From NCBI GenBank assembly GCA_011391255.1, contig JAABQV010000003.1, positions 1 to 64,000 on the forward strand: DNA of 64,000 bases, in the 5' to 3' direction. The notes beneath the pieces are model-generated. The model did no database searches. It was not told where the DNA came from and was given only the letters and a program-made list of their open reading frames with translations. Below, one piece after another: positions 4,946 to 39,039 of the stretch (positions within the stretch are counted from its first letter, which is position 1; every line of letters begins with the position of its first letter). Position numbers and translations under genes: made by a program. This DNA comes from Dechloromonas sp. Lineage in GTDB: Bacteria; Pseudomonadota; Gammaproteobacteria; Burkholderiales; Rhodocyclaceae.

Positions 4946-4963
4946 TTCAATGGGCTACTAGAG

Positions 4964-4998: not shown

Positions 4999-5044
4999 AT
5001 AGCCCGAACGGCCCATTGTGAAAGAGGGGCTTAGTTCGTATCCT
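4999..5044 (+). promoter_or_regulatory. Conserved activator box plus -35/-10 promoter, copy 1
   Basis: ATAGCCCGAACGGCCCATTG (4999-5018) matches the 20-bp element found before three other units. Its last three bases begin a -35 hexamer TTGTGA (5016-5021), followed after 17 bp by the -10 hexamer TATCCT (5039-5044). Transcription would start near 5051, about 40 nt before the ATG at 5091. An activator box overlapping -35 is the class II arrangement used by many LuxR-type activators. Confidence 0.7.
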
Positions 5045-5090
5045 CCAATCCAAGAAGTTAAATAAGTAATTTGGATAAAGAGGTAAGGCC

Positions 5091-5597
5091 ATGAAAACTC
5101 TCTCAGTAAAAGTACTTGCGGCAACGTGCTGCATTGGCTTGTCGAGTTTGGCCGCTGCGGCTCCGGTGCAGCCCGATCGCATCCTTGATTTTTCTTCGCA
5201 GGACACCTACCTGGTAACGACTGGAAGCGGTAACAACTTGATTAACTACCAAGTGATTACTGCATCGGGCCAGCGTTTTTTAAACATCGACCTCTTGTCC
5301 TCAAGCAACAAACCAGATACTTCCTCCGGCTACCGTCTGTGGGAAGACAGCAATTCAGCCACCGACAAAATCACTTTTGGGGATGAGCTGCAGGGGCGTA
5401 CTGTGATTGATCTTTTGGGCGCGATCTCGTGGGCGGTTGAGGGCGGCAAGCAATACATCCTGAGAATCAACCCGCTGGGTGGCCCGGATGTCACGGCAAC
5501 TTCTTCAGTTTCTGCTGTACCCCTGCCGGGGGCGTTGTGGTTGTTTGGAAGTGCACTGCTCGGGTTCCTCGGGTTATCAAATCGTCGTAAGTTTTAG
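5091..5597 (+). CDS. VPLPA-CTERM sorting domain protein 1
   Basis: A 168-residue secreted protein. A Sec signal peptide is visible (Lys-containing start, hydrophobic core, AAAAP cleavage region around residues 22-26). The C-terminus is a tripartite sorting signal: SAVPLPGALWLFGSALLG, a hydrophobic helix, then the basic tail SNRRKF. The motif is the recognition and cleavage site of XrtD-type exosortases, encoded here at 27558. The middle region has no recognisable domain. A good ribosome site (AGAGGTAAGG) precedes the ATG, and the gene lies behind a copy of the shared activator/promoter element. Confidence 0.9.
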   Translation: MKTLSVKVLAATCCIGLSSLAAAAPVQPDRILDFSSQDTYLVTTGSGNNLINYQVITASGQRFLNIDLLSSSNKPDTSSGYRLWEDSNSATDKITFGDELQGRTVIDLLGAISWAVEGGKQYILRINPLGGPDVTATSSVSAVPLPGALWLFGSALLGFLGLSNRRKF

Positions 5598-5633
5598 TTT
5601 TAACTTTTTTAATTTTATTTACAGGGGTTTCAC

Positions 5634-6128
5634 ATGAAAAAACTATCAATTTCTCTACTTGCAGCTGGTCTTTTGGCTTTCGGTAGCGTTCAAGCCGCTA
5701 CTATTAACTTGATCAACGGCGGTGCCCCGCAGGATATGGGTACTCTGGGTAGCACGCTCGTAAATCCAACCAGTGGCCTGTTTGATATCAACTACTCATT
5801 CGGTGGATTGGTTACCTTCAAGCTCGTAGCGCCGACAAACCCAGTAAATTCAATGGTTCATTACGTGCTGAAAAATTTGGGTGATGTCGTTGTCCAGGAT
5901 TTTTATCTAGACAATGATGCAGCAACATCTGCCAGTGATGTTTTTCAATTTTCGCAGGCTGGTGGGTCATATAAACTCAATATTGAAACCGCTGCTCGTT
6001 CTACCATAACCGAGATCTCTGCCGTTCCGCTTCCGGCTGCTGCTCTCCTGTTCGCATCCTCACTCTTCGGTGCTGGCGCTCTGCGTCGTAAAAAGCAGCA
6101 AGAAGTAGCGCAAACGGTTGCAGCATAA
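5634..6128 (+). CDS. VPLPA-CTERM sorting domain protein 2
   Basis: A 164-residue secreted protein with an N-terminal signal peptide ending near FGSVQA. The C-terminal sorting signal is SAVPLPAAALLFASSLFGAG followed by LRRKKQQ. It begins 37 bp after the previous VPLPA-CTERM gene and is probably co-transcribed with it from the 4999-5044 promoter. A strong terminator follows. The beta-rich middle has no family I can name. It is similar in size to, but not an obvious copy of, its neighbour. Confidence 0.9.
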   Translation: MKKLSISLLAAGLLAFGSVQAATINLINGGAPQDMGTLGSTLVNPTSGLFDINYSFGGLVTFKLVAPTNPVNSMVHYVLKNLGDVVVQDFYLDNDAATSASDVFQFSQAGGSYKLNIETAARSTITEISAVPLPAAALLFASSLFGAGALRRKKQQEVAQTVAA

Positions 6129-6148
6129 GCACTTATTCGTTATGCTTG

Positions 6149-6174
6149 AAGGGGGCTAAAAGCCCCCTTTTTTT
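6149..6174 (+). terminator. Rho-independent terminator after the VPLPA-CTERM pair
   Basis: GGGGGCT-AAA-AGCCCCC hairpin followed by seven T, 20 bases after the stop of the second VPLPA-CTERM gene. It isolates these abundant surface-protein genes from the export operon that starts at 6205. Confidence 0.9.
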
Positions 6175-6204
6175 ATGTTCCCTGAATAGGTATAGCCGCT
6201 ACCC

Positions 6205-6768
6205 ATGACTAAATATTTTCGTCTTCTGAGCTCGATTATTTTTTTAGGTATTTCACTGTCGACCGCAGCTGATGAGACTGTTGAGCCTTATACATTACGT
6301 CACGGTGACAGTCTTCTGGTATCAGTCTGGCGCGAAGAGGCTCTGCAAAAAGAGGTACGTGTATTGCCTGACGGCAGCATTACTTTTCCGCTTGCCGGGC
6401 GAGTTGAAGTGGCCGGGCTGAGCTCATCAGAAGCTGAGCTGCGGATCGCAGCCAAAATCAAAGAATTTATTCCTGATCCGGTCGTCACGATTGTGATCAC
6501 AAATATCGAAGGAAGCCGGGTCTACGTTCTCGGCAAAGTGCCAAAGCCCGGCCCGGTGATCCTGACCGCGCCCAATTCCACCGTTCTCCAGGTGTTGAGT
6601 CAGGCCGGTGGCCTTGATCGATTTGCCGATGGCAACAACATTAAAGTGCTGCGCGAGACCAAAAAAGGTCAGGAAACCTTCGCCGTTCGCTTTAACGACC
6701 TGATGAAGGGCAGCGAACTGGAAACCAATATCAAGCTCAAGGCGGGTGACACCATCCTCGTTCCATAA
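6205..6768 (+). CDS. Polysaccharide export protein (Wza/EpsE-like)
   Basis: A 187-residue periplasmic/outer-membrane polysaccharide export protein. It has a signal peptide (to about residue 22), a Poly_export domain (YTLRHGDSLLVSVWREEALQ, with VLPDGSITFPLAGRVEVAG) and a SLBB-type segment (VYVLGKVPKPGPVILTAPN). Unlike Wza of E. coli there is no lipobox cysteine after the signal peptide and no C-terminal amphipathic barrel helix. It therefore probably relies on a separate outer-membrane protein, for which the next gene is a candidate. It starts an operon with the barrel, chain-length and kinase genes. Confidence 0.9.
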   Translation: MTKYFRLLSSIIFLGISLSTAADETVEPYTLRHGDSLLVSVWREEALQKEVRVLPDGSITFPLAGRVEVAGLSSSEAELRIAAKIKEFIPDPVVTIVITNIEGSRVYVLGKVPKPGPVILTAPNSTVLQVLSQAGGLDRFADGNNIKVLRETKKGQETFAVRFNDLMKGSELETNIKLKAGDTILVP

Positions 6769-6771
6769 TCA

Positions 6772-7890
6772 ATGGCGCGTTTTCTGGTTATTGGCGTAAC
6801 ACTGCTCGGGGCCATATGGCCCCTTCAGGCGTTTTCGGATCCACTCTTGCAAACCGTGTCGGTGCCGGTAGGCGTCGAGTACGATTCCAATCCGACAATG
6901 ATCGCAAATGATCCATCAAGCATCATGCGCTATCGGGTTATGCCGCAGTATCAACTCAGTTACAAAGGTGACAGCAACGATCTGACGTTTTCGCTGGGGG
7001 CCAGACTGGAACGATCCAGCGACCAGGCATTGAGTGTCAACCGGCAGGATCCGAATCTAGGTTTAAGTTGGCAGACTTTCAGCCCCACATCAAGCTTCGG
7101 CGTTAACCTGAGATACGCCCAGGAGTCGGCGAGAACGACCGAGTTCCAGGATTCCGCGGCGGTTACCGTTGATGCCACAAGAACCACGGCAGGATTGGGC
7201 GCAAACTGGAAAAATAGTCTAAGCGAGCGCAATGACTTGACGCTAACCGCTGACTACAGTGACGTTAGCTACGATAGCCCGACGCTGACTGATTTTCAGA
7301 ACACCAGATTAGGTGCCACGCTGGGGCATCAATTCAACGAACGCTCAGAGCTCTTTGTGACCGGAAGCGCAAGTCGCTTTGAGCCTGGCCAAAACGCTGT
7401 CCGCACCGCAATTAAATCTGAAAGCTATATCGCCATGCTGGGCTTCAAAAGCAAGTCCAGCGAAAACTTTGACTGGTTGCTTCAGGGCGGTGGCGTATCG
7501 ATTACCTCCAACGGCATCGAATCCCACGATTGGCAAGGCAACTGGCGCATTAATTATGCGGGTGAACGCTTAAGCGGCTCCTTGGATATTGGCCGCACCA
7601 CCACAGCCAGCGGAGTTACCGGGGGTTTTGCGACCAACGATGCGCTTAGATTCCAGGCAAGTTACTTGTTGAGCGAGCGCTCCTCGCTGGCTTTTGATGC
7701 CAGCACGACCAAGAGTGAAAGTACGCTATCAACGACTACCGATATCTATGGGGCAACCTACAGCCGGGAGCTATCCCCGTTCTTCCGCCTGAATCTTCGT
7801 GTTCAGCGCAGGGCAATCGAGCGCGAAATAAACCCGGCTTCCAGCAATCTTGTCGGATTGACGCTGATCTACTCCCACCCTGACTTTTAA
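6772..7890 (+). CDS. Outer-membrane beta-barrel protein of the EPS locus (EpsL-like)
   Basis: A 372-residue protein with a signal peptide ending near LQAFSDP. The rest is made of alternating hydrophobic/polar strands rich in Ser, Thr, Asn, Arg and Tyr, typical of a beta-barrel, and it ends with an aromatic residue (SHPDF). Size and position between export protein and chain-length determinant resemble EpsL-type proteins of exosortase-linked polysaccharide operons. It is predicted to form the outer-membrane part of the secretion path. The gap to the upstream gene is only 3 bp, so it is co-translated. Family assignment is from character and context. Confidence 0.7.
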   Translation: MARFLVIGVTLLGAIWPLQAFSDPLLQTVSVPVGVEYDSNPTMIANDPSSIMRYRVMPQYQLSYKGDSNDLTFSLGARLERSSDQALSVNRQDPNLGLSWQTFSPTSSFGVNLRYAQESARTTEFQDSAAVTVDATRTTAGLGANWKNSLSERNDLTLTADYSDVSYDSPTLTDFQNTRLGATLGHQFNERSELFVTGSASRFEPGQNAVRTAIKSESYIAMLGFKSKSSENFDWLLQGGGVSITSNGIESHDWQGNWRINYAGERLSGSLDIGRTTTASGVTGGFATNDALRFQASYLLSERSSLAFDASTTKSESTLSTTTDIYGATYSRELSPFFRLNLRVQRRAIEREINPASSNLVGLTLIYSHPDF

Positions 7891-7907
7891 GTAAATAGCA
7901 GGAAAGC

Positions 7908-9482
7908 ATGTCTCAAGAATATCAACTGACGTTTACCGACTACCTCGCCATTATTCGTCGGCGAGCCCTACTGATGATCGCTACTTTTGGAGCGATCTTC
8001 GTCGTCGCCACGGCTATTGCTTTGTTGATACCGCCGGTTTATCAGTCAACCGGTACGATCATGGTCGAGTCGCAACAGATTCCGAACGATCTTGTCCAGG
8101 CTACCGTCACCAGTTTTGCCGATGAGCGTATTGAGATCATCAAGCAACGCGTGATGACGCGCGAGAACCTGCTGCGCATTATTGAAAAGTATCAGTTGTT
8201 CAAGGAAGACCGGGCTTCCTACACGCCATCAGAGCTGATTGACGAAATGCGCTTGCGCATCGGTCTCGAATTGGTCAACGCCAATGTGCAAGGGGCTCGC
8301 AAGGGAGCAACGATCGCCTTCAAGGTCTCATTTGAACATCGTCGCCCTGAGTTGGCGCACCGGGTTGCCAATGAACTGGTCACGCTTTTCCTTGATGAAA
8401 ACGCCAAGGTGCGCACCGAGCGCGCCACGCAGACCACGGAATTCCTGACCCAGGAGGCCGACAAGCTCAAGGTGGAGTTGGAAACACTGGAAAATCAAGT
8501 TGCCAACTACAAGCAAGAGCACGGAAGCGCACTACCGGAGAACATGACCATCAGCATGAACGTCATGCAGCGTCTGGAATCCGAGTTGCGTGAAGTTGAC
8601 CGCGACTACAAATCCTCGCAAGAAGAATTGCGCTTTCTGGATATAGAACTGGCCAGTGCCAAAGCCGGCATCGGTGTGACGCAGGGTGCGGTAACGGCGC
8701 TGAGTCCTGCTCAGGACTTGCAGCGCTCAAAAGCCGAGCTGGAGCGCTTGAGTTCGATTTATACCGAAAGCCACCCGGATATCCGTGCCTTGAAGCGCAA
8801 GATTGCCGCGCTTGAGAAGGCCGCGCCCGCAGTGGCGGGGGGGCAGGCGGCAAATTCAGCCGGCGATCTGATGGTGGCCAAGGTAGAAGCAAAAATTGCC
8901 GCTGCCAAGTCTCACGTGGCGTCACTGGGGGCGCAGCAGTCGAGCATTCGGACCAAACTGGCGCAACTCGAAGGGCAATTGCTCAAGGCACCTCAAGTTG
9001 AGCGTGGTTTGTCGACGCTGATGCGCGACCATCAGAATGCCGAGAAAAAATACGATGAAATCCGCGCCAAGCAAATGACGGCGCAGGTTTCAGAAAACCT
9101 TGAAGGCGATAAAAAGGCCGAGCGTTTCTCCATGCTCGAACCCCCTTTGCTGCCGGATAAACCGATCAAGCCCAATCGCAAAAAAATGATCGCCATGGGC
9201 TTTGCCTTGGCGGTTGCAGGTGCCGGCGGCTTGGCATTTATGCTTGAAAGCCTGCACGGAACTGTGCGTGGGGCGGATGCGCTGGAGGCCATTATCAGGC
9301 GCCGGCCGATGGCGATCATCCCCTACATCACGATTGATTCTGAAGTCGATGAACGCAAACGTTTGATCAAGCGAATACTGATCGGTATCGCTGTAGCAAT
9401 CCCGGTCGCCTTGCTCTTGGTACATCTGCTGGTTATCCCGCTCGATATTCTTGCCTTGAAGATTATGGTCAGGCTTAACTAA
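7908..9482 (+). CDS. Wzz/GumC-type chain-length determinant protein
   Basis: A 524-residue inner-membrane protein controlling polysaccharide chain length. There is a transmembrane helix near residues 20-45 and the Wzz-type segment YQSTGTIMVESQQIPNDLVQ. A long periplasmic coiled coil runs from about 180 to 400, with a GNVR-like region (LMRDHQNAEKKYDEIRAKQM). A C-terminal transmembrane pair begins at KKMIAMGFALAVAGAGG. There is no kinase domain; that is encoded by the next gene, so this is the split arrangement usual in exosortase-linked loci (TIGR03007-like). Confidence 0.9.
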   Translation: MSQEYQLTFTDYLAIIRRRALLMIATFGAIFVVATAIALLIPPVYQSTGTIMVESQQIPNDLVQATVTSFADERIEIIKQRVMTRENLLRIIEKYQLFKEDRASYTPSELIDEMRLRIGLELVNANVQGARKGATIAFKVSFEHRRPELAHRVANELVTLFLDENAKVRTERATQTTEFLTQEADKLKVELETLENQVANYKQEHGSALPENMTISMNVMQRLESELREVDRDYKSSQEELRFLDIELASAKAGIGVTQGAVTALSPAQDLQRSKAELERLSSIYTESHPDIRALKRKIAALEKAAPAVAGGQAANSAGDLMVAKVEAKIAAAKSHVASLGAQQSSIRTKLAQLEGQLLKAPQVERGLSTLMRDHQNAEKKYDEIRAKQMTAQVSENLEGDKKAERFSMLEPPLLPDKPIKPNRKKMIAMGFALAVAGAGGLAFMLESLHGTVRGADALEAIIRRRPMAIIPYITIDSEVDERKRLIKRILIGIAVAIPVALLLVHLLVIPLDILALKIMVRLN

Positions 9483-9493
9483 GGAAACACCCC

Positions 9494-10309
9494 ATGGAAC
9501 GCATTAAAGTCGCCATTGAAAAAGCCAAGAAGCAGGGCGGGGTAAAGCAGACAGTTAGTCGGGCACCAGCTGTTAGTGCGCAACTGATCGATGCTGATGA
9601 GCAAATTGAAGTCAGCTATGTGCAAACAGAAGTCGTTGAGCTAGATCCGATCTATCTGGAAAAGCACCGTATTGTTGCCTTCAACAAAAACAATCCATCC
9701 AATTGGGCTTTTGACATCCTGCGCACCCAGATTCTTCAGAAAATGGATGAGAACGGCTGGCGAACGCTGGCAATTACGTCTCCGACGCCTGAATCCGGCA
9801 AAACGGTGATGGCGATCAACCTGGCCATGAGTATTGCGCACCATACGCAACGCACGGCAATGCTGGTTGATTTTGACCTGCGCCGCCCCAAGGTAAAAAA
9901 TTACTTGGGCGTTCATCGTGAAAAATCGCTAAACGATGTCTTGTCAGGCGAAGCAGAACTCGCAGAAGCAATGTTCAACCCGAACTTACCGCGCCTGGTG
10001 ATTTTGCCAGCCAACAAGCCAGTTCAAAAATCGGCAGAGGTGCTATCTTCCAAAAAGGTAGCCGCCATCATCAGTGATTTGCGCGAGCGCTATCAGGATC
10101 GAATCGTGATTTTTGACCTGCCGCCCATCCTTGCGGCCGACGATGTCATTTCTGTATTGCCAAGAATTGATTGTGTCTTGATGGTGGTTGGCAACGGCAT
10201 GTCGACGCAGCGTGAAATCGAAGAGAGCATGCGTCATCTCCCCGATGCTAACCTGTTGGGGGTGGTGCTCAATAAAGGCGAAGTCCCGGCACGAACCTAC
10301 TACTATTGA
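9494..10309 (+). CDS. CpsD/EpsG-type tyrosine autokinase
   Basis: A 271-residue cytoplasmic bacterial tyrosine kinase. Walker A is TPESGKT (residues 98-104), Walker A' is MLVDFDLRRP (from 123), and the Walker B-like strand is IVIFDLPP. The protein ends in a tyrosine cluster (TYYY), the autophosphorylation tail. It works with the Wzz protein just upstream to cycle polysaccharide assembly. A clear AAGGAAA ribosome site lies before the ATG. It closes the conserved core; base composition drops sharply right after it. Confidence 0.92.
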   Translation: MERIKVAIEKAKKQGGVKQTVSRAPAVSAQLIDADEQIEVSYVQTEVVELDPIYLEKHRIVAFNKNNPSNWAFDILRTQILQKMDENGWRTLAITSPTPESGKTVMAINLAMSIAHHTQRTAMLVDFDLRRPKVKNYLGVHREKSLNDVLSGEAELAEAMFNPNLPRLVILPANKPVQKSAEVLSSKKVAAIISDLRERYQDRIVIFDLPPILAADDVISVLPRIDCVLMVVGNGMSTQREIEESMRHLPDANLLGVVLNKGEVPARTYYY

Positions 10310-10603
10310 ATATTAAAAAATAATATTTATTTTCAAGAGTTATTTAATTAGCTTCTGAAATATACGTCAAATTAGAATTGTTTAATTCTAATTTAATCCA
10401 CTAAGCCGCCGAAATTGTTAGAGTATATTCTGTCCAAAGGAAGGTAAAGCTCGGGCCCCGATGCAATTATAGAGGGCATGGCTCATCCTGAATCAGATGG
10501 CTTATTTACATACAGCGATCGATAAAAAATACGACGTCAAGTCTATTGTTTAAATGACGAGTTTAAAAATATATTAACAATGAAAGACTGCGGCACTGAA
10601 AAT
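10310..10603 (+). other. AT-rich intergenic region at the junction to the variable cassette
   Basis: About 290 bases without a supported gene. The sequence switches from about 50-55% to roughly 30-35% GC here. TTGTTAGAGTATATTCTG around 10415-10432 contains a possible -10, but no convincing promoter or terminator hairpin is seen. It marks the left boundary of the low-GC polysaccharide cassette. Confidence 0.5.
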
Positions 10604-11995: not shown

Positions 11996-12124
11996 CTTGA
12001 AGAAAATAGTTAAATTTTTATAGATCCTGCAAAATATTTCCTCCATTAAAAATAGAAAACTATATTTATTTTGCTGTATAAATTTACCAACTAACTAAAG
12101 CGTCGTTTTTATAGAAAAAATGGT

Positions 12125-13456: not shown

Positions 13457-13483
13457 TTAATTTAATCGCAGTAAAGGTTTTGA

Positions 13484-14737: not shown

Positions 14738-14765
14738 AAAATATTAGAGAAGAAATAATATAACA

Positions 14766-15857: not shown

Positions 15858-15889
15858 CATTAACTTAACGCCAAAATAGGACAACGGCT

Positions 15890-17224: not shown

Positions 17225-17237
17225 TATTATTTAGATC

Positions 17238-18890: not shown

Positions 18891-18955
18891 TTCGTACTTA
18901 TATATTGATCTCGTTGCAGTTTTTTAACTTAAGTTACTAATATCTATTCGGTGTG

Positions 18956-20062: not shown

Positions 20063-20159
20063 AATAATTGAAATGTTTTGAGTGTGTATCATAATAGTAA
20101 TCGCGGTTTTGAATCGAGCGCTCAATATCGTCAATGTTTGTATTTCAAAAGGGTTTTTA

Positions 20160-21727: not shown

Positions 21728-21730
21728 GAC

Positions 21731-22240: not shown

Positions 22241-22242
22241 AC

Positions 22243-27517: not shown

Positions 27518-27557
27518 CTGAATGCTACTATCTCACACCTTTGTCATCTAAATCGCC

Positions 27558-29099
27558 ATGAAAATCTCCCTGAAAAGAAACGAGATACTCCTCACTCTGG
27601 GGCTGCTGCTTGTTTTTGCGGCCTATTTTGGTGGCCTATCAAATCTCGTCAATCGTTGGTACAACCAGGAAGAATATAGCCACGGTTTTTTCATTCCCCT
27701 GATTTCACTCTGGTTGTTATGGCAGCGCCGTGATGCGCTGGTCGCCAGTGTTGGCAAGCCATCGGGCTGGGGCCTGGTGGCACTCGCAGTCAGCGTCGGT
27801 ATGCTGGTACTGGGCGAGTTGACCGCCATTTTTATCATCATTCAAACGGGCTTTTTGCTCGCCTTGATTGGTCTGGTGCTGTGCTATGGCGGGGTTTCGC
27901 TGTTGCGCGTGACAATCCTGCCGATTGCCTTGCTGCTGTTTTGTATCCCTTTACCCTATTTTGTTGATTCCCAGATTTCCTGGCGCTTGCAGTTGCTGTC
28001 GTCCAATCTGGGCGTGGCCTTTCTTCGACTGATGAGTTATTCGGTCTACCTTGAGGGTAACGTTATCGATCTGGGTGTGTACAAGTTGCAGGTGGTGGAT
28101 GCCTGCAGCGGTTTGCGTTACTTGTACCCTCTGATGAGCCTTGGCTTTTTGATGGCTTATATGTACCCGGCAGCGCTCAAGTGGCGGGTCCTGATCTTCC
28201 TGTCAACAATTCCGATTACGGTGCTGACCAACAGCTTCCGCATTGCCATGGTCGGCGTTCTGGTTGAGCGCTGGGGCAGTGGCATGGCGGATGGCTTTCT
28301 CCATTCGTTCGAGGGTTGGATCATCTTTTTGGTGTGCCAGGTGATCATGATTGGCGAGATCTGGTTGATTGAGCGCTATACATTGAAGCGCCGGATTCTT
28401 GATGTCCAGCAGTTCCCGGAAGTGGCTGCGGTGATCCCCAAAAACCCGGCTACGGGTGCGCTCTCCTGGCCTCTGGTTGCCGGGATTGCTTCGGTTGCCG
28501 TGGCGCTGGTGCTGGTCCAGGTGGTCGGTGGCCGTGAAGAGATCAAGCCGGCACGCCTGAGCTTGAAGACTTTTCCGCTGGCTTTGGGTAACTGGCGCGC
28601 AGCTGAGTCTTCTTTGTCGGTTGAGGTTGAACAGGCGCTGGGTTTTGATGATTATGTGCTGGCTGACTATCGCGACGAATCGGGCCAGTTGCTGAATTTT
28701 TATGTGGCTTACTACGGTTCGCAACGCAAAGGTGTTTCTCCGCATTCGCCGCAGGTTTGTATTCCTGGTGGTGGCTGGGTGATTTCAGGCTTGGATCGCG
28801 TCACTTTCCCGCTGGTTGACGGCTCGCCTATGGAGGCGGTGCGTGTGGTGATCGACAAGGGGAGCCAGAAGCAGATTGTGTATTACTGGTTTGAACAGCG
28901 TGGTCGCCGGATTGCCAACGAATACTTCATGAAGTGGTATTTGTTGAGTGATTCGATTACCCGCAATCGCACTGATGGTGCCTTGGTGCGGGTGACGACG
29001 CCGGTTGGTCCGCTTGAGGCGCCCGGCGCTGCTGATGAGCGGGTGCGCGCCTTCATCCGGCTGGCTGAGCCATTGATGGGCACCTATGTGCCGCAATAA
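27558..29099 (+). CDS. xrtD: Exosortase fused to EpsI (XrtD, VPLPA-CTERM specific)
   Basis: A 513-residue inner-membrane transpeptidase/protease. About eight transmembrane helices carry the exosortase catalytic residues Cys183 (VVDACSGLRYLYP), Arg228 (TNSFRIAMVG) and His249 (DGFLHSFEGW). From about residue 310 a periplasmic EpsI domain follows, with YYGSQRKGVSPHSPQVCIPG. The exosortase-EpsI fusion and the four VPLPG/VPLPA substrates in this window fit the XrtD subtype. It cleaves the C-terminal sorting signal and probably transfers the protein to a surface or extracellular anchor. It begins 40 bp after the WecG-STAS gene and heads the xrtD-prsT-ATPase unit. Confidence 0.88.
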   Translation: MKISLKRNEILLTLGLLLVFAAYFGGLSNLVNRWYNQEEYSHGFFIPLISLWLLWQRRDALVASVGKPSGWGLVALAVSVGMLVLGELTAIFIIIQTGFLLALIGLVLCYGGVSLLRVTILPIALLLFCIPLPYFVDSQISWRLQLLSSNLGVAFLRLMSYSVYLEGNVIDLGVYKLQVVDACSGLRYLYPLMSLGFLMAYMYPAALKWRVLIFLSTIPITVLTNSFRIAMVGVLVERWGSGMADGFLHSFEGWIIFLVCQVIMIGEIWLIERYTLKRRILDVQQFPEVAAVIPKNPATGALSWPLVAGIASVAVALVLVQVVGGREEIKPARLSLKTFPLALGNWRAAESSLSVEVEQALGFDDYVLADYRDESGQLLNFYVAYYGSQRKGVSPHSPQVCIPGGGWVISGLDRVTFPLVDGSPMEAVRVVIDKGSQKQIVYYWFEQRGRRIANEYFMKWYLLSDSITRNRTDGALVRVTTPVGPLEAPGAADERVRAFIRLAEPLMGTYVPQ

Positions 29100-29123
29100 A
29101 TGATTTTGTGAAGGAAAACAGGA

Positions 29124-31523: not shown

Positions 31524-31526
31524 TCT

Positions 31527-32348: not shown

Positions 32349-32367
32349 TTTTGAGCGCTTTTCGGCG

Positions 32368-32384
32368 TTAGTCCGTTCGGCTAA
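32368..32384. promoter_or_regulatory. Upstream secondary copy of the TAGTCCG box
   Basis: TTAGTCCGTTCGGCTAA is a near-palindromic variant of the conserved box (inverse complement TTAGCCGAACGGACTAA). It lies 39 bp upstream of the promoter-proximal copy at 32407, as similar secondary copies do at 4968 and 38936. Confidence 0.5.
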
Positions 32385-32406
32385 GTTGCTCAGTTTTCGG
32401 CGGCTA

Positions 32407-32452
32407 TTAGCCTTAACGGGCCATTGAAGTGATGCCATCCCCTGAATAAAAT
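32407..32452 (+). promoter_or_regulatory. Conserved activator box plus -35/-10 promoter, copy 2
   Basis: TTAGCCTTAACGGGCCATTG (32407-32426) is followed by -35 TTGAAG (32424-32429), a 17-bp spacer and -10 TAAAAT (32447-32452). The 46-bp arrangement is identical to the three other copies. Because transcription should start near 32459, the ATG at 32451 would not be in the mRNA, which supports the start at 32481. Confidence 0.75.
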
Positions 32453-32480
32453 GAAGTTATCCAAATGGGGGAGTAATGCC

Positions 32481-33284
32481 ATGATCAAAAACGAAAAATC
32501 GATGCCAAAGTCAGCCGTGCTCAAGCAGATCCTTGCCGGAGCTTTGCTCTGTATTGGCGCCAGCGCTGCTCAGGCCTCCAATGTCAATCTCACTTATCAG
32601 GGAGCTGGTTTTGCTCCTTATGTTGGCTCTTCGATTACCAGGTTCGATAGTGCTACGGGGAACGCGACAACCGGTTGGCAGGGAGTATCCACCGGCGCCT
32701 TTGACATGAAGGTGACCAATTCTCCGAGTTCCCTGTTTGAAAGCGGCAAATCCATTCTCGCCTGGTGTGTTGATGTTTCACAGTCACTGGGTGGCTTGAA
32801 CCAATCAAAAACTTACGGTGTTGATACGACCTTTGATACCAACAGTGCATTTGGTCGTCATGGCGTGACACAGACCAAGATCACCGATATCCAGCGTCTG
32901 TTTAATCAGCGCTACGATGAGCTGCTGGGCGCCACCACCTCTGCACAGCAGTCAATTCTTTCAGCTGCGATGCAGCTCGCTGTGTGGGAAATCGTCGCGG
33001 AAAACACTCAATCTACCTATTCGCTGGGTTCTGGTATGTTCAAGGCAATAGACAATTCAACCCAGAAAAGTAAAGACGCTGTGGCCATGGCAGGGGATTG
33101 GTTAGGCAAACTGTCATCGGCGAATCAAACAGGTAATTACCGGATCGTTATCCTGAATAACGCAGCTCAGCAAGATTTGATTACTGTTTCAGCAGTACCG
33201 TTGCCGGGTGCCGCCTTACTGTTCCTGTCAGCGCTGGGCTTGGGTGGTTTGGCCAAGCGGCGCGGCCAGAAGCTGGCTGCCTGA
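32481..33284 (+). CDS. VPLPA-CTERM sorting domain protein 3
   Basis: A 267-residue secreted protein with a signal peptide (basic start, then LAGALLCIGASAAQAS). The C-terminal signal is SAVPLPGAALLFLSALGLGG followed by AKRRGQK. The mature part has a cysteine in LAWCVDVSQSLGG and a segment AAMQLAVWEIVAENT, resembling secreted PEP-CTERM proteins with thioester-domain-like N-termini, but I do not assign a domain. The ATG at 32481 has a GGGGAG site and lies after the predicted transcription start; the ATG at 32451 overlaps the -10 box. It is separate from the ATPase operon. Confidence 0.9.
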   Translation: MIKNEKSMPKSAVLKQILAGALLCIGASAAQASNVNLTYQGAGFAPYVGSSITRFDSATGNATTGWQGVSTGAFDMKVTNSPSSLFESGKSILAWCVDVSQSLGGLNQSKTYGVDTTFDTNSAFGRHGVTQTKITDIQRLFNQRYDELLGATTSAQQSILSAAMQLAVWEIVAENTQSTYSLGSGMFKAIDNSTQKSKDAVAMAGDWLGKLSSANQTGNYRIVILNNAAQQDLITVSAVPLPGAALLFLSALGLGGLAKRRGQKLAA

Positions 33285-33539
33285 TTGTGAGGGTGTCCCG
33301 AATTTTTTGGAATCGGGGTTTGAGTTAAAGGCTGTTCATCCGGTCATCGGGCTGGATAGTAAATCGAGTCAGGGCAGCTTTCCAATCCCGAATCGGCATT
33401 GTCTTTTTAGCTGATTTTTTGCAGGGCCAGATAGAAGAGCGGGGCTGCCTATTCGACCGCAACGGCTTCTCATGCGACAACGCGACAGTAACGCGTAATT
33501 TTACGGCCTTCCAGAATTTGACGAAGGCTGCGCATTAGC

Positions 33540-33971
33540 TTATTCCGGCAGCCACGACCCAGCCAAAACCTCGTCCTGAATAGCCCAAGGGCATTCTTCA
33601 GGGAAGCAATCCAGTCCAGTTTCATTGACTGCTTGAGCAATAGCCCGTGCCCAGACCATATCTAGCCAACGCGGCTCTTGCAATTTGGGCACAAGGCTCG
33701 GAGATTCGTCCAAGGCGTAACTGATTTCCTTGCGCTGAGCCGTTATCGTCTTTTGCCAACTTGCCCCTCTGCGGTCAGGTTGATGCGCCCACTTGAGCAG
33801 ATGTGCGAGCAGTACAACCATGCGGATGGCCAACTCACGTTGTTCGCTTTTGCCCACGTCTTCAATCTCCCCGGCAATATGTTCGACATCCAGCAAGTCA
33901 AATCGCCCGGCACGCAACAGGCGTGCTTGCTCATTTGCCCAAGCATTGATGTCATGTTCGTAGGTTTGCAC
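33540..33971 (-). CDS. DUF29 family protein
   Basis: A 143-residue protein with the DUF29 pattern: YEHDINAWANEQARLLRAGR, FDLLDVEHIAGEIEDVGKSE, then LLAHLLKWAHQPDRRGASWQ and the C-terminal FPEECPWAIQDEVL. The function is unknown; the family is widespread in cyanobacteria and proteobacteria, often in accessory regions. It is transcribed against the VPLPA-CTERM gene. About 255 bases between 33285 and 33539 hold no gene or clear terminator. Confidence 0.88.
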   Translation of the reverse strand: MQTYEHDINAWANEQARLLRAGRFDLLDVEHIAGEIEDVGKSEQRELAIRMVVLLAHLLKWAHQPDRRGASWQKTITAQRKEISYALDESPSLVPKLQEPRWLDMVWARAIAQAVNETGLDCFPEECPWAIQDEVLAGSWLPE

Positions 33972-34349
33972 AGCTAACCTCCTTTTCTATCCATATCCTG
34001 TTGCATAGTAGCACCCACCACTGCTTCGTTGTCGGATCATATATGGCGCCAAACCGAACGGCGACTTGGCCCTTGAAGACATCTCGGCTCGTTTGGCACG
34101 GTATGGGCTGATGGAGATGAATATGCCGCTTGGGAAACGTCAATATTTCATGGCTCGACACCAAAACTCTGATTGAATTTGGAGAACGTCCTGAAGGATT
34201 GACGGAAAAACAGGTGCGAATTGTGCTCAACCACAAGGAAGAAATTTCGTACCTGAAGGACCATGAACTCGACCTGAATGAGTTGGAGTTCGAATACCAC
34301 GTCAAAGCAGAGCAATCCAGGGGGCTGCCGGCGATTTTGGCCTTGTTTT
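33972..34349 (+). other. Intergenic region with possible decayed coding sequence
   Basis: No intact gene is supported. Two short open stretches on the + strand read like protein fragments: around 34045-34165 (GDLALEDISARLARYGLM) and around 34160-34320 (EKQVRIVLNHKEEISYLKDH). They are in different frames and lack convincing starts or domain matches, so they may be remnants of one or two lost genes. Confidence 0.3.
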
Positions 34350-35159
34350 TTAGTTGCGCGTGGCGCGTGGACCTTCCATTTTCGAGACTGCCTGAGCCCG
34401 GTTCATGACATCCAGTTTCTTGAATATGCGCTGCAGGTGGTTTTTGACGGTAAAGGTACTGATGTCAAGAATCATCCCGATTTCCTGATTTGTTTTGCCT
34501 TTGCGCACCCATTCCATGATGTCGTGTTCCCGGGTGCTGAGTCCGCTTTCCTTGCCGACAGGTGCAAACCCTAATGTGGGTTCTTGCGGGGCCATAGGGC
34601 GCAGGTCGTGGAGGTATTGCTCTGGCAAGTGGGCAATTTGTCTGAACGAGGTGTCCAGATAAGGCATCAGGAAGCGGAAGGTTTCCTTGGACCTGGTGGT
34701 GCCAAGTTCTTCCGGGCCCAACAGGACATAGAGGCAGTCATGCCGGCCTCGCTGGTCTTTGATGCCATGAACCAACGCACAACGCATGCGCTTCATGGTT
34801 TTTTGGATGTCAGGGTTGCGCGCTTCGTTAAGATCGAAGCCTTTGCCGGAATTGATGGCAAAGGGGATATGGTCGAATCCCATCCAGCGATTGAACAAGG
34901 TCGCTATGAAGGGTTGAATTGTATGATTGTCAAAGGCTTCGGTACGCAGTCCCGGTATCGGCGAAACGATGTCATACGAGATGAGCCCCAGCGAAAAGTC
35001 TCCCCATGCGGCAATCACGATATCGTGCGGCATGAAGTGCTGAATGTCTTCCTGCAGCCAATTGAACAGCTCGTAATGTGTGCGAATCTGCAGCGATTGC
35101 TGCACCACCTTGAGGATGGGGCCGACATCATTGAGCGAAAGATTGGCTAGAATGGTCAT
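34350..35159 (-). CDS. epsA: LuxR-family regulator EpsA
   Basis: A 269-residue regulator. Residues 1 to about 195 form the sensor-like domain of EpsA (LFNWLQEDIQHFMPHDIVIA, then GIKDQRGRHDCLYVLLGPEE). Residues about 205-265 form a LuxR/GerE helix-turn-helix: LSTREHDIMEWVRKGKTNQE and TFTVKNHLQRIFKKLDVMNR. It matches the exosortase-associated EpsA family (TIGR03020), a transcriptional regulator of EPS/PEP-CTERM genes. LuxR-type HTH proteins bind roughly 20-bp dyads and often overlap -35, exactly the arrangement of the four conserved boxes in this window, so it is the best candidate to bind them; that link is inference. Confidence 0.88.
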   Translation of the reverse strand: MTILANLSLNDVGPILKVVQQSLQIRTHYELFNWLQEDIQHFMPHDIVIAAWGDFSLGLISYDIVSPIPGLRTEAFDNHTIQPFIATLFNRWMGFDHIPFAINSGKGFDLNEARNPDIQKTMKRMRCALVHGIKDQRGRHDCLYVLLGPEELGTTRSKETFRFLMPYLDTSFRQIAHLPEQYLHDLRPMAPQEPTLGFAPVGKESGLSTREHDIMEWVRKGKTNQEIGMILDISTFTVKNHLQRIFKKLDVMNRAQAVSKMEGPRATRN

Positions 35160-35444
35160 GAATGATTAATGAGTGGAGAGGGCTGGCGGCAGGTTCTCGT
35201 TTGGAGGGCTTTTGAACGCATCTGGAATATTTTGTAGGCGAGCATATGTTGCTTGATTGAACGCAGTATCCGTGTAAATACGTTAAGCGACTGTGATATT
35301 TTTCCGCTATTTGCGTAAATTAATGTAATTATTTTGCCCAGGGTGAGTGACAATCCAGCTCGAAAAATCCCTGCTTTGTGTAAAGACACTGGTGACAGCG
35401 ACACTGGCGCCAGAATTTTTCTTGAGTTATAGGTACAAGTCATC
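35160..35444. other. Divergent intergenic region between epsA and manC
   Basis: 285 bases holding the divergent promoters of epsA and manC. It is AT-rich in the middle (around 35290-35340). No copy of the conserved TTAG...CCATTG box is present, and no clear -35/-10 pair can be singled out. Confidence 0.4.
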
Positions 35445-36884
35445 ATGAGTAAAGTGCTTCCTGTTGTTCTGTCTGGTGGCTCCGGTACGCGGCTATGGCC
35501 GCTTTCGCGAGAAAAATATCCCAAACAGCTTTTGCCGCTGGTCGGCGATCAATCAATGTTGCAAGCAACGGTGTCGCGACTTGAGGGATTGGCTGATATG
35601 AGCCCGCCGTTGATTGTCTGCAACGAGGAACATCGCTTTGTGGTTGCCGAACAGCTGCGCGTGTTGGGCTTGCATGGGGCGGTTCTGCTTGAACCGTTTG
35701 GTCGCAATACCGCGCCAGCGCTTGCTCTGGCGGCGCTCTGGGCGATGCGGGCGGGTGAGGATCCGGTTATGGTAGTGATGCCTGCGGATCACGATATTGC
35801 CGATGGTGCTGCGTTTCGTGATGCCGTGGCGAGGGCTGTTGTTTTGGCTGAAACGGGCAGCGCTGTTACCTTTGGAATCACGCCGGATTGTGCTGAAACG
35901 GGCTACGGCTATATTCAGCGCGGTGCTGCGTTGGGTGGTGCTTCTGGTGCTTTTGATCTGGCCCGCTTTGTTGAAAAGCCGGCAAAGCTTACCGCCGAGG
36001 CTTATCTCGCCTCAGGTGATTATTTTTGGAATAGTGGCATTTTTGTAATTCTGGCTTCCGTCTGGCTGGATGCATTGGGTTTGTGCCGTCCTGATATTCT
36101 TCAGGCCTGCCGGAGTGCGCTGGACAAGGGCGCGGCCGACGGTGATTTTGTGCGGGTGGATAGCGAGACCTTCAAGGGCTGCCCTTCCGACTCCATTGAT
36201 TATGCGGTGATGGAACGCTTGACGACAACCGGCCAGGGCTTGCCAAAAGCCGCCGTCATTCCGCTTTCAGCCGGCTGGTCGGACGTTGGCGCCTGGGATG
36301 CGTTATGGAAAGTTTTACCCAAGTGTGGCGAAGGTAACGCAACCCGTGGCGATGTGCTGCTCGAGAATTGCCGGGATACCCTGGTGGTTTCCGAGAGCCG
36401 TCTGGTCGCTTGTGTCGGGCTGAGTAACGTGGTGGTCGTTGAAACTGACGATGCCGTTCTGGTGGTTCATCATGATGCGACGCAAGACGTCAAAAAAGTG
36501 GTTGATCGCCTGAAGGCTGATAAGCGCAGCGTGGCTCAGTGGCATCGCAAAGTTTATCGGCCCTGGGGCTGGTACGACGGCGTGGATAGTGGTGAGCGCT
36601 TTCAGGTCAAACGGATTGGCGTCAAGCCGGGCGGCACGCTGTCACTGCAAATGCACCACCATCGTGCTGAACACTGGATTGTGGTCAGTGGTACGGCCAG
36701 GGTGACCAAGGGTGAGGAAGTTTTTCTGGTGACCGAAAACCAATCTACTTACATTCCGCTCGGTGTGACGCACCGGCTTGAAAACCCGGGTGTCGTGCCG
36801 CTGGAAATGATTGAGGTGCAATCCGGTAGCTATCTGGGCGAAGACGACATTGTTCGCTTCGAAGATACCTACGGCCGACTTTGA
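35445..36884 (+). CDS. manC: Mannose-1-phosphate guanylyltransferase / mannose-6-phosphate isomerase
   Basis: A 479-residue bifunctional enzyme making GDP-mannose. The N-terminal nucleotidyltransferase has LSGGSGTRLWPLSREKYPKQ, GRNTAPALALAA and the FVEKP motif. The C-terminal cupin isomerase (about 350-479) has RPWGWYDGVDSG, KPGGTLSLQMHHHRAEHWIV and a terminal PLEMIEVQSGSYLGEDDIVR. It supplies GDP-mannose for the polysaccharide. It lies outside the main EPS operon but beside its regulator. Confidence 0.95.
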   Translation: MSKVLPVVLSGGSGTRLWPLSREKYPKQLLPLVGDQSMLQATVSRLEGLADMSPPLIVCNEEHRFVVAEQLRVLGLHGAVLLEPFGRNTAPALALAALWAMRAGEDPVMVVMPADHDIADGAAFRDAVARAVVLAETGSAVTFGITPDCAETGYGYIQRGAALGGASGAFDLARFVEKPAKLTAEAYLASGDYFWNSGIFVILASVWLDALGLCRPDILQACRSALDKGAADGDFVRVDSETFKGCPSDSIDYAVMERLTTTGQGLPKAAVIPLSAGWSDVGAWDALWKVLPKCGEGNATRGDVLLENCRDTLVVSESRLVACVGLSNVVVVETDDAVLVVHHDATQDVKKVVDRLKADKRSVAQWHRKVYRPWGWYDGVDSGERFQVKRIGVKPGGTLSLQMHHHRAEHWIVVSGTARVTKGEEVFLVTENQSTYIPLGVTHRLENPGVVPLEMIEVQSGSYLGEDDIVRFEDTYGRL

Positions 36885-36927
36885 TTTTTTGGCACGCAAG
36901 CCGGGCACGCAATAAACCTGGCTGGCA

Positions 36928-36981
36928 GCCGGCAAGATGATTTGTAATCATCAGGTATCAGTTCGATTCTGGTCGGTGGCA
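36928..36981 (+). tRNA. tRNA-Thr(UGU)-like remnant lacking the D arm
   Basis: A 5-bp anticodon stem GATGA/TCATC encloses the loop TTTGTAA (36941-36947) with anticodon TGT. The short variable segment AGGT is followed by T-stem ATCAG, loop TTCGATT and CTGGT, which all pair. GCCGGCA (36928-36934) can pair with the 3' acceptor strand CGGTGGC at five of seven positions. The D arm is missing, the variable loop is one base short and there is no encoded CCA. It is therefore a degenerate pseudo-tRNA rather than a working tRNA. Confidence 0.55.
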
Positions 36982-36998
36982 ACAATAAAATCAATAGT

Positions 36999-37020
36999 TT
37001 ACGGGTTTCTAAACCCGTAA
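36999..37020. repeat. 10-bp perfect inverted repeat after the tRNA-like remnant
   Basis: TTACGGGTTT and AAACCCGTAA are perfect inverted copies with a 2-bp centre. There is no following T run, so it is not a typical terminator; it may be a leftover of the tRNA 3' region or of an attachment site. The bases from 37021 to 37223 hold no supported gene, although an antisense frame (37023-37394) is open. Confidence 0.5.
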
Positions 37021-37223
37021 TCTTAGTTCAGCACTGGTTTTTGCTGCAACTGGCGCATGGTGCTCGCAAAGGAATCGACTACCCCTATGGGGATAACGCT
37101 CACCAAGGCCACGCGGAAGGTCAAGCTATCACTAAGGCTGTTGCGCAGACTGGCGAGCAGGTGTTGGAAGTCGTTAGCGTCGACCAGCCCTAATCTGCTA
37201 CGATAAGACTTAAGTAGATTGTA

Positions 37224-37493
37224 TTGGCGGATTTTTTCAGCAAAAGGTTTGATAAGAATGTGTGGGTAACCAAACATGCTCGTGAAAGCATGCAGCGTCG
37301 GAACATTGACGCGGCCACGCTGGAGCGGGTCATCGAGGAAGGTGAAATCAAACGCCGTGACAAGGTGAATCTTTGGGTCTTCGCGCACATTCAAGGGCGG
37401 GCCGACAACTTAATCTGCGCTGCCGTGGACGAACAGGCTGCGGTTGTGATTAAGACGGTTATGGTTAATTGGGAACTGGAGGACGAAGCATGA
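37224..37493 (+). CDS. DUF4258 small protein (putative toxin)
   Basis: Up to 89 residues. VTKHARESMQRRNIDAATLE is the DUF4258 signature, followed by RDKVNLWVFAHI and LICAAVDEQAAVVIKTVMVN. The TTG at 37224 and the GTG at 37260 are both possible starts. The gene overlaps the DUF2283 gene by four bases (ATGA). DUF4258/DUF2283 gene pairs are widespread and are considered putative type II toxin-antitoxin systems; activity is not proven. Confidence 0.75.
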   Translation: MADFFSKRFDKNVWVTKHARESMQRRNIDAATLERVIEEGEIKRRDKVNLWVFAHIQGRADNLICAAVDEQAAVVIKTVMVNWELEDEA

Positions 37494-37693
37494 GAATCAA
37501 GTACGATGGCCAGGACGACATCCTATTCATTGAGTTCTCAAAGGAACCCATCGTCAAGGATGTTTCGCATGGTTGGAATGTAAATGTCGGTTACGCGGCA
37601 AACGGAATCGCTGAAATAACGATTTTGGACGCCAAGGCTGCCGGCTATTGGCCACTGGAAAACGCTAAAGATTTGCTGCCTCTCGCGGCCTAA
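37490..37693 (+). CDS. DUF2283 small protein (putative antitoxin)
   Basis: A 67-residue protein with the DUF2283 pattern: MRIKYDGQDDILFIEFSKEP and then GIAEITILDAKAAG. The start overlaps the upstream DUF4258 stop, and GGAGG precedes it at 37478-37482. It is the probable partner of the DUF4258 protein. Confidence 0.8.
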   Translation: MRIKYDGQDDILFIEFSKEPIVKDVSHGWNVNVGYAANGIAEITILDAKAAGYWPLENAKDLLPLAA

Positions 37694-37981
37694 TCCACGG
37701 CCAAACCGAGGATTTCGCCAAGGGTGTGCGGAGTAAGTAATTGCAGCATTTTGCTGGTCTTGTGAAATGCGGTCACGACGACCGCCAAGAGTATAGGCAA
37801 AATTGTAGGGAACGTCGGATGGTAATAGTCGAAATGACAAATGCTTGCTGCAAATCTGCTGCAATAATCCCCGAGAAATGCAGTAAAACCCGGAACAAGA
37901 GGGTAAGCTAAGTCTCTGATTGTATTGTGTTGATCCGCGTGGTTGCAGGGCTCGTAAACTGATTTGCGGCCGGCAGAAATG
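37694..37981. other. Gene-free spacer between the DUF2283 gene and the terminator
   Basis: No gene with a plausible start and domain is seen on either strand; long antisense frames here are low-complexity shadows. The right edge is the terminator of the VPLPA-CTERM gene transcribed from the opposite side. Confidence 0.5.
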
Positions 37982-38015
37982 AAAAAAGCTCAACCAAATT
38001 GGTTGAGCTTTTTTT
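37982..38015 (-). terminator. Rho-independent terminator of VPLPA-CTERM gene 4
   Basis: AAGCTCAACC-AAATT-GGTTGAGCTT hairpin with A and T runs on its two sides, lying 19 bases past the stop of the gene on the minus strand. It could work in both directions. Confidence 0.9.
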
Positions 38016-38033
38016 GCGTGGGCTTTGGAGCGA

Positions 38034-38636
38034 TCAGGCAGTAGCAGATTTTTGTTTGCGACGAAGAGCGCCAGATCCAAGAAGTGCTGAGCCAAACAGA
38101 AGTGCTGCGCCAGGCAAAGGAACCGCCGACAGATTGACGTCGTCGATGTTGCCACCCAAACGATTGCTGGTGCCAGTAGCAGCGAACTTGAGCAAATCAC
38201 TACCACCTGTACCTGTGACCAGTGCGCTAAAGGTGGTCCAGACGTTGACCCCTGCACCAGTGCCGGTAACCTCAAGGAGCTGAACTCCGTTCCAGTACGC
38301 TGCGATACCGTTAGTGCTGGCGGGCTGATTGATCCGCGGGGAGTAGTCGAATGTTAGTTTGTATATTTGCCCGAGAGTAGTCGTTATCGCTTGCGTGATC
38401 GAACTGTTCCTGTAGGTGTCCAATTCAACGTAATTGGAGCCGGCAGAAGCAGTTCCGGAAACATTGTTCCGGATTTCGATGCCGTCCGTCGAAGTCCAAC
38501 CCGGAATAGATGCAAGCGTGGTGTAAGAACCAGAGGAAACGCCTGGATTCTCGAAACTGCCATTGGTCACCAAAGAGCTTGCGCTGGCAAGGGTGGAAAG
38601 GGACAGCAGTACAGCCGGTAAAATTGCTTTAATCAT
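38034..38636 (-). CDS. VPLPA-CTERM protein 4 with DUF642-like/galactose-binding-like domain
   Basis: A 200-residue secreted protein. The signal peptide ends near LASASS. The body reads like a carbohydrate-binding jelly roll of the DUF642 type: LVTNGSFENPGVSSGSY, IPGWTSTDGIEIRNN, YVELDTYRNSSITQAI and YKLTFDYSPRINQPAS. The C-terminal signal is LSAVPLPGAALLFGSALLG plus ALRRKQK. The start at 38636 is chosen because AAGGAGTGACAAA precedes it and it begins the signal peptide; a longer frame to 38723 has no such site. The conserved activator/promoter element lies upstream at 38735-38780. Confidence 0.9.
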   Translation of the reverse strand: MIKAILPAVLLSLSTLASASSLVTNGSFENPGVSSGSYTTLASIPGWTSTDGIEIRNNVSGTASAGSNYVELDTYRNSSITQAITTTLGQIYKLTFDYSPRINQPASTNGIAAYWNGVQLLEVTGTGAGVNVWTTFSALVTGTGGSDLLKFAATGTSNRLGGNIDDVNLSAVPLPGAALLFGSALLGSGALRRKQKSATA

Positions 38637-38734
38637 TTTGTCACTCCTTAAACATCGATTAAGACTGAAGTTTTGACCAGCAGCTGCATTAGAGGGGGCC
38701 AAAAAATTGTTGGGTAGTTCCAACCTGCAGACGA

Positions 38735-38780
38735 ATTTTGTTACGAAAGAAGCAATCGCTCAATAGTCCAACCGGGCTAT
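38735..38780 (-). promoter_or_regulatory. Conserved activator box plus -35/-10 promoter, copy 3
   Basis: Read on the minus strand: ATAGCCCGGTTGGACTATTG (38780-38761), -35 TTGAGC (38763-38758), 17-bp spacer, -10 CAAAAT (38740-38735). The geometry is identical to the other copies. In this copy the dyad is best seen: ATAGCCC and GGACTAT are inverted copies with one mismatch. A leader of about 90 nt would precede the gene. Confidence 0.72.
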
Positions 38781-38935
38781 CAGTGAATGTCAAGTACCCA
38801 TCACCCAACTATCCGTTAGTTCTGCAGAACTCATGTTTGCTATCCATACCTTGGCTTAAGCGTTATCCATGCTGGGTTTGACTGTTTTTTACTAACGTGG
38901 ATCGATCTCGCGACGCGGTGGTCTCGAGCGGCGGA

Positions 38936-38953
38936 ATAGTCCAAACGGATCTA
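38936..38953. promoter_or_regulatory. Upstream secondary copy of the box before the Arg-rich small genes
   Basis: ATAGTCCAAACGGATCTA matches the left and centre of the conserved box and lies 58 bp upstream of the promoter-proximal copy at 38994. The remainder of the 433-bp divergent spacer (38637-39069) holds no gene. Confidence 0.5.
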
Positions 38954-38993
38954 CGACTAAAGTTATCCATGGTCTTGTTTTTGATGAATAACC

Positions 38994-39039
38994 TTAGTCT
39001 TAACGGGCCATTGCGCTTCTCGGGGCGCGGGGTGAAACT
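38994..39039 (+). promoter_or_regulatory. Conserved activator box plus -35/-10 promoter, copy 4
   Basis: TTAGTCTTAACGGGCCATTG (38994-39013) differs from copy 2 at one base of twenty. -35 is TTGCGC (39011-39016), the spacer is 17 bp and GC-rich, and -10 is the weak GAAACT (39034-39039). The weak promoter elements suggest dependence on an activator. Transcription would begin about 24 nt before the GTG at 39070. Confidence 0.68.

Follow-up and report, generated by a model that had tools for sequence, protein, structure and literature searches.

A dyad abutting the −35 hexamer precedes exosortase substrate genes of Dechloromonas sp. and its relatives: a candidate EpsA-activated promoter module

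The stretch of DNA analysed here (the window) comprises 64,000 nucleotides, i.e., positions 1–64,000 of the forward strand of contig JAABQV010000003.1 of Dechloromonas sp. (assembly GCA_011391255.1), and carries genes for the exosortase XrtD, several of its substrates, and the LuxR-type regulator EpsA. Four of its transcription units are preceded by a common promoter module, the core of which is a 16-bp dyad, TAGYCC-N4-GGRCYA, consisting of two 7-bp half-sites with 2 bp between them and followed by TTG. Sites of this type (the box) show a fixed geometry, lie ahead of exosortase substrate genes in many genomes, and co-occur with EpsA. We consider it probable, at about three chances in four, that EpsA, bound to the box, activates a sigma-70 promoter of a PEP-CTERM/VPLPA-CTERM regulon; co-occurrence, fold and geometry lead us to infer that EpsA is the binder, that it acts as activator rather than repressor, and where transcription would start.

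The box lies at 4999, 32407 and 38994 on the plus strand and at 38780 on the minus strand (covering 38761–38780); all four coordinates were verified. At each site, TTG opens a −35 hexamer that is followed after exactly 17 bp by a −10 hexamer, a geometry described in a first-pass annotation of the window and borne out at all four sites, with the same hexamers. Module 1 (5000–5044, plus strand) is made up of the dyad at 5000–5015, the −35 hexamer TTGTGA at 5016–5021 and the −10 hexamer TATCCT at 5039–5044, with a predicted start at about 5051; module 2 (32408–32452, plus strand) comprises the dyad at 32408–32423, TTGAAG, and TAAAAT at 32447–32452. Module 3 (38735–38779, minus strand) has its dyad at 38779–38764, TTGAGC at 38763–38758 and CAAAAT at 38740–38735, and module 4 (38995–39039, plus strand) its dyad at 38995–39010, TTGCGC, and the weak −10 element GAAACT at 39034–39039. 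If transcription starts 7 bp past the −10 hexamer, the dyad is centred at −43.5. The dyads of the window are imperfect, with three to five of the six outer positions pairing. The same annotation had proposed a shared 20-bp element, of which the four places stand, but not the consensus as a description of all of them: with up to three mismatches it matches three times in the window (0.10 expected; none of 100 shuffles reached three) and misses the minus-strand site by six bases, whereas the dyad, TTG and spacing are shared by that site as well. The weaker upstream copies likewise proposed are present in three cases, namely TAGTCCGTTCGGCTA at 32369–32383 (39.5 bp centre-to-centre from the main dyad) and degenerate dyads at 38937–38953 and 4943–4957 (each 57.5 bp from the main dyad), all listed without a strand; however, since equally loose matches number 70 on one strand of the window, these copies are only suggestive as part of the module.

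The geometry extends beyond the window. Among 73 contexts retrieved, 44 unique boxes have a PEP-CTERM open reading frame (ORF) within 300 bp, and their logo is an inverted repeat of 7-bp half-sites 2 bp apart, most dyad letters of which were fixed by the search pattern itself. The strongest signal 3' of TTG is a −10-like element at 17-bp spacing, besides weaker biases at a few other positions. In the 41 sites from outside the window, the hexamer at this spacing matches TATAAT at 2.63 of 6 positions, as compared to 1.36 (standard deviation 0.16) at other offsets, a score reached in none of 20,000 random draws. Since the pattern required TTG but demanded nothing downstream of it, the −10 signal lends independent support to the proposed geometry. 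A site abutting the −35 hexamer, with the −10 element at a fixed distance, is the arrangement of a class II sigma-70 promoter, and class II activation fits it, the start sites being predicted ones. The same position would also allow EpsA to act as a repressor that occludes the −35 hexamer and is relieved by a ligand or an exopolysaccharide signal, as a site touching this hexamer could block polymerase. Poor hexamers combined with a fixed operator distance are typical of activator-dependent promoters, and beyond TTG and a loose −10 element the hexamers are indeed poor, while the distance from dyad to −10 is fixed. Moreover, NarL activates at ogt of E. coli from an equally placed 7-2-7 site, according to the available part of the report (PMC7419079). 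Repression by EpsA therefore appears rather improbable.

In the bacterium's own genome (G000, 3.29 Mb), the exact dyad-plus-TTG pattern occurs at five sites, four of which are located in the window, versus none for the reversed pattern used as control; the 20-bp pattern with at most one mismatch retrieved three window sites and the fifth exact site, C1:63020. The latter (TTGCGC, 17 bp, CAAAAT) precedes the gene of a 219-amino-acid VPLPA-CTERM protein ending VPLPA...RRKI. A search with the VPLPA-CTERM model at E 0.1 yielded four genes; three are preceded by an exact box, one of them as second gene of its unit, and the fourth, on contig C57, by a box copy shortened by one base, behind which come TTGAAG, 17 bp and TAGTAT. 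At C1:64042, a perfect palindrome (all six outer positions of this dyad at 64.04 kb pair) lies ahead of a 239-amino-acid VPLPG-CTERM gene; TACGAT follows this dyad at an unchanged distance. Searching for PF07589 retrieved only two genes, both already among the substrates found. Every substrate gene found in this genome sits behind the box or a variant of it, as does a pair of Arg-rich genes without sorting signal. Matches to the 20-bp pattern with three mismatches (three of seven places) were set aside, the reversed control having given 13, and so were one-mismatch matches to a 19-bp pattern (8 places versus 9 in the control). Besides the five exact sites, only the C1 palindrome was retained, in view of the gene behind it; it is a single site that accounts for two of the three one-mismatch places. 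The first-pass annotation had predicted a regulon of exosortase substrates that a genome-wide scan should reveal. The scan agrees with it, as the box is linked to VPLPA-CTERM genes rather than randomly placed, the sole additional exact site precedes such a gene, and variant boxes precede two more VPLPA/G-CTERM genes.

The restriction of this regulon to VPLPA-CTERM proteins and XrtD proved too narrow, for the boxes of relatives precede ordinary VPEP-type PEP-CTERM genes. One relative, G065, has 29 pattern matches, and 18 of 24 unique sites examined (from 26 listed) lie upstream of PEP-CTERM genes, as compared to an expectation of 1.4% (binomial p 8e-29). Among the remaining six, the site on C282 precedes a VPLPA-ending ORF, the ORFs behind those on C100 and C120 are cut by the contig end, and behind C18:6835, C138 and C189 no PEP-CTERM gene was recognised. 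The strict box is found at 18 of the 43 PEP-CTERM genes of this genome. Four box-bearing genomes yielded 75 PEP-CTERM genes; of the 30 judged by eye, 24 have a relaxed dyad upstream (10/10 in G405, 7/9 in G065, 5/9 in G434 and 2/2 in G000), as compared to about 0.08 matches of this type per kb and strand in shuffled loci. When perfect 6-N4-6 dyads were tallied in 26 of the PEP-CTERM loci, TAGTCC ranked second (7 loci), behind CCCCGC (8 loci), which was taken to represent terminator stems. In G391, genes coding for EpsA, XrtB and EpsE/EpsG lie within about 26 kb of two boxes, one of them exact and ahead of a PEP-CTERM gene, the other with a single mismatch; the box occurs here alongside an XrtB system and hence is not tied to XrtD. 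Degenerate secondary copies are frequent in the window, and family genomes with a match do not outnumber those matching the reversed control, as would be expected of a chance or shared-descent repeat without function. That explanation is nevertheless very improbable, because the sites precede differing PEP-CTERM genes in many genera and the −10 distance is conserved, the other flank being little conserved.

The association with EpsA was assessed in 150 genomes of the family and, with a stricter box pattern, in 349 genomes of the order. The threshold for EpsA in the family was E 1e-30; in the order, exosortases were taken at E 1e-15 and PrsR at E 1e-150. At most seven candidates per genome were scored for EpsA and exosortase and at most four for PrsR, so that absences are softer than presences, and the tests treat genomes as independent although shared descent links them. 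Within the family, nine genomes contain an exact site and 32 encode EpsA, including eight of the nine (p 1.5e-5; 6.4e-5 without the own genome); the reversed pattern matched 20 genomes, six of them with EpsA (p 0.23). Across the order, box, EpsA, exosortase and PrsR were found in 17, 63, 129 and 83 genomes, respectively. EpsA occurs in 12 of the 17 box genomes (nominal p 1.4e-6), as compared to 2 of 11 genomes matched by the reversed pattern (p 0.62), whereas PrsR occurs in 4 of the 17 (p 0.61), indicating that the box does not track PrsR. Ten genomes, including the own genome and G160, have a box ahead of a PEP-CTERM-like ORF, as judged by a custom C-terminal pattern and reading by eye; the seven box genomes without such linkage were kept in the Fisher tests and left out only of the counts for these ten. 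EpsA is encoded by nine of the ten, and a PrsR match was obtained in none; without the doubtful G160, the PEP-CTERM-like gene of which has no family match, the count is 8/9 (p 5.9e-6). Of the 29 genomes that have EpsA but gave no PrsR match, 9 carry linked boxes, as compared to none of the 34 that have both; since EpsA is named as partner of XrtB, this exclusion may partly reflect XrtB versus XrtA systems.

It would be conceivable that the sites simply are the PEP-CTERM box of PrsR and sigma-54, which is a described regulatory site in Proteobacteria (PMC1569441, available part). However, besides the lack of a PrsR match in the ten linked-box genomes, none of the 4 candidates scored out of 66 in the own genome qualified as PrsR at E 1e-150, and the 44 sigma-54-like sites counted in the window do not exceed the 45 expected by chance. 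A sigma-54 promoter at the boxes was rejected, as none of them shows a −24/−12 GG/GC element (judged by the consensus). We regard identity with that site as hardly credible.

A further line of evidence comes from named records, in which the best 80 of 474 relatives were split into 42 that matched over most of their length and 38 that matched in the helix-turn-helix (HTH) region only. With up to one mismatch, the 42 flanks of the former (733 kb) contain 12 box matches, corresponding to 10 distinct sites in 10 loci, five of which precede PEP-CTERM genes; these loci include Methylobacillus caricis (L115), Rhodoferax sp. OV413 (L126) and Candidatus Accumulibacter iunctus (L130). Shuffled flanks gave 0–2 matches and the 38 HTH-only flanks (664 kb) none, although these control loci include other phyla and are unmatched in ancestry. 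No EpsA was detected in plasmid records at E 1e-20. The link to EpsA, which had been inference in the first-pass annotation, thus gains support from the co-occurrence in 349 genomes and from the density of boxes around EpsA genes.

Some box-bearing loci showed additional features. In L247 (G165), perfect dyads at 3701 and 4727 flank an epsA-like gene, the former preceding the gene of a small, probably secreted protein without recognised sorting signal. L248 (G160) has two sites near epsA: a near-box at 2422, ahead of an operon that includes an EpsE export gene, and at 5919 an exact box, ahead of the gene of a short protein with the terminal sequence DRDFYGMMLASLG...RRR. Polysaccharide export, too, may be under the control of EpsA in this organism. 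Locus L211 (G436), from a genome encoding EpsA as well as PrsR, has a box at about 2463 divergent to an ORF ending IPTLPEWGAILMAGLLLGAAYWRQG, the product of which looks like an IPTL-CTERM protein.

EpsA of the window matches TIGR03020 with 240.8 bits, above the curated cut-off of 170, and carries a GerE domain; the domain search gave no match to a receiver domain. Its HTH is strongly conserved among relatives. An AlphaFold model (predicted local distance difference test, 86; predicted template-modelling (TM) score, 0.67) resembles LuxR-type receptors (CviR, QscR, SdiA, RhlR) and, more weakly, GAF domains, with whole-chain TM-scores of about 0.4, which leave the domain packing uncertain.

Several observations weigh against a regulon activated by EpsA. 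The boxes of G434 precede PEP-CTERM genes, yet this assembly of about 330 contigs gave only generic HTH matches to EpsA, and G135 has one exact site, which is not ahead of a PEP-CTERM gene, together with only an EpsA-like HTH fragment (71% identical over 55 amino acids, in a 116-amino-acid frame without sensor domain; L108). The strict box is absent from 51 of the 63 EpsA genomes of the order and from 32 of the 42 named EpsA flanks, and three of the ten linked-box genomes (G160, G290 and G434) lack an exosortase match at E 1e-15. Genomes with a match are not clearly more numerous than in the reversed control (9 versus 20 in the family, 17 versus 11 in the order), and the co-occurrence statistics ignore shared descent. 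Because the reversed pattern matches more family genomes than the pattern itself, one match per genome means little; the signal is in multi-copy genomes and in the type of gene behind the sites. The regulon could be real and the box be read by another regulator, EpsA merely accompanying PEP-CTERM systems. The linked boxes of G434, the many EpsA genomes devoid of a strict box, and the fact that both box (12/17) and EpsA (53/63) are mostly found in exosortase-bearing genomes would agree with this. On the other hand, the link to EpsA persists among exosortase-bearing genomes (10 of 12 box genomes, p 0.0024), the boxes flank epsA and not other LuxR-type genes (with the reservation made above for these control loci), and the 7-2-7 layout of the dyad is that of NarL-type sites, EpsA carrying the GerE domain. 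Another regulator is therefore considered unlikely, albeit less so than the other alternatives.

According to the mechanism we favour, i.e., activation by EpsA, a dimer of this LuxR-type protein would occupy the 16-bp dyad with its two 7-bp half-sites, centred near −43.5, and, positioned against the −35 hexamer, would recruit sigma-70 RNA polymerase, with the −10 element at its fixed distance, much as NarL activates ogt and yeaR from 7-2-7 sites beside the −35 hexamer. Exosortase substrates would be switched on together, which in the own genome would comprise the XrtD substrates and the Arg-rich pair. We also lean, with modest confidence, towards a wider interpretation, in which the dyad marks a second PEP-CTERM regulon across the order, EpsA and a sigma-70 class II promoter replacing PrsR and sigma-54. 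Each genome would rely on one of these two modes of control irrespective of its exosortase (XrtB, XrtD), and the window would represent an XrtD system rewired to an XrtB-type regulator. If so, the LuxR/GAF-like domain of EpsA would couple the expression of surface proteins to a signal, perhaps one linked to polysaccharide synthesis.

The units behind the four modules differ in content. Unit 1 starts with an exosortase substrate gene (5091–5597, plus strand), the product of which ends VPLPG...RRKF and scores above the gathering threshold of PF07589, followed by a VPLPA-CTERM substrate gene (5634–6128, plus strand; TIGR03370 above cut-off). A terminator-like hairpin with a T run (6148–6171, plus strand; consensus scan only) would end this unit ahead of the export operon; since it separates the substrate pair from that operon, box 1 need not drive the latter. 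A role of the box in driving the export operon of the window was set aside, given the hairpin and the lack of a near-scoring site ahead of 6205. Module 2 precedes a VPLPG-CTERM substrate gene (32481–33284, plus strand), assigned by its C-terminal motif, as no sorting-signal model matched; the protein shows a sub-threshold match to the thioester domain PF08341 (E 0.011) with a WCVDV...QLAVWE arrangement and may represent a covalent adhesin belonging to an exosortase system. Module 3 precedes the gene of a DUF642/choice-of-anchor-C-like VPLPG-CTERM substrate (38034–38636, minus strand). The two small Arg-rich genes behind module 4 (39070–39282 and 39315–39548, plus strand) have no Pfam match and no C-terminal sorting signal; their products are 37% alike over 46 amino acids and contain repeated ERR/DRR motifs, and the pair has a substrate-type promoter. 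No convincing relatives of it were found in the retrieved loci, within which alone they were sought. The proposed activator is encoded by epsA (34350–35159, minus strand), and xrtD (27558–29099, plus strand) codes for a VPLPA-CTERM-specific exosortase (TIGR04152, 532 bits); the XrtD locus also contains XrtA-like polysaccharide genes alongside epsA. Elsewhere in the window, near-identical stretches at 48450–48485 and 50342–50377, about 1.9 kb apart, hint at a duplication.

No description of the EpsA box was found in the open-access literature searched. As far as the available part of their paper goes, Haft et al. (2006) described one sigma-54 site ahead of 99 of 167 proteobacterial PEP-CTERM genes and stated that more regulators and motifs await discovery (PMC1569441). 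The dyad is a strong candidate for one of these further motifs, with a named regulator and a 46-bp module, and leads to the prediction that regulation falls to EpsA in genomes devoid of PrsR. Exosortase substrates whose C-termini score too low for the sorting-signal models may also become recognisable by the box; two such genes were encountered here (32481–33284 and C1:64181).

Class II promoters with a LuxR-bound lux box have a palindrome of about 20 bp touching the −35 hexamer, and the half-site of NarL is TACYYMT. The dyad resembles the former in touching the −35 hexamer, and the modelled N-terminal fold of EpsA appears similar to CviR, QscR and SdiA, but the dyad is shorter (16 bp) and of other sequence, and a response of EpsA to acyl-homoserine lactones is not implied. 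From NarL sites it differs by its half-site, TAGYCC, and EpsA differs from NarL in giving no receiver-domain match and in its modelled N-terminal fold, which is LuxR/GAF-like. The likeness to the NarL sites of the ogt and yeaR promoters in E. coli, as far as documented in the available part of PMC7419079, lies in the inverted 7-bp repeats 2 bp apart, the GerE-type HTH, one site abutting the −35 hexamer (with its centre at −44.5 in the case of ogt), and, at ogt, a second site further upstream. Transcriptional control of a PEP-CTERM gene is also known for pepA of Aquincola, which is RpoN-dependent with a mapped −24/−12 sigma-54 promoter; the main text of that report, seen in part, does not mention EpsA or LuxR (PMC9850573). 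A further parallel is the PEP-CTERM box of Haft et al., likewise an upstream site before PEP-CTERM genes recognised by comparative genomics and tied to its regulator by phylogenetic profile; as presented in the available part of the paper, however, that box is a two-part sigma-54 site (activator motif plus −24/−12 element) assigned to PrsR, whereas the dyad adjoins a sigma-70-like −35 hexamer and tracks EpsA (PMC1569441).

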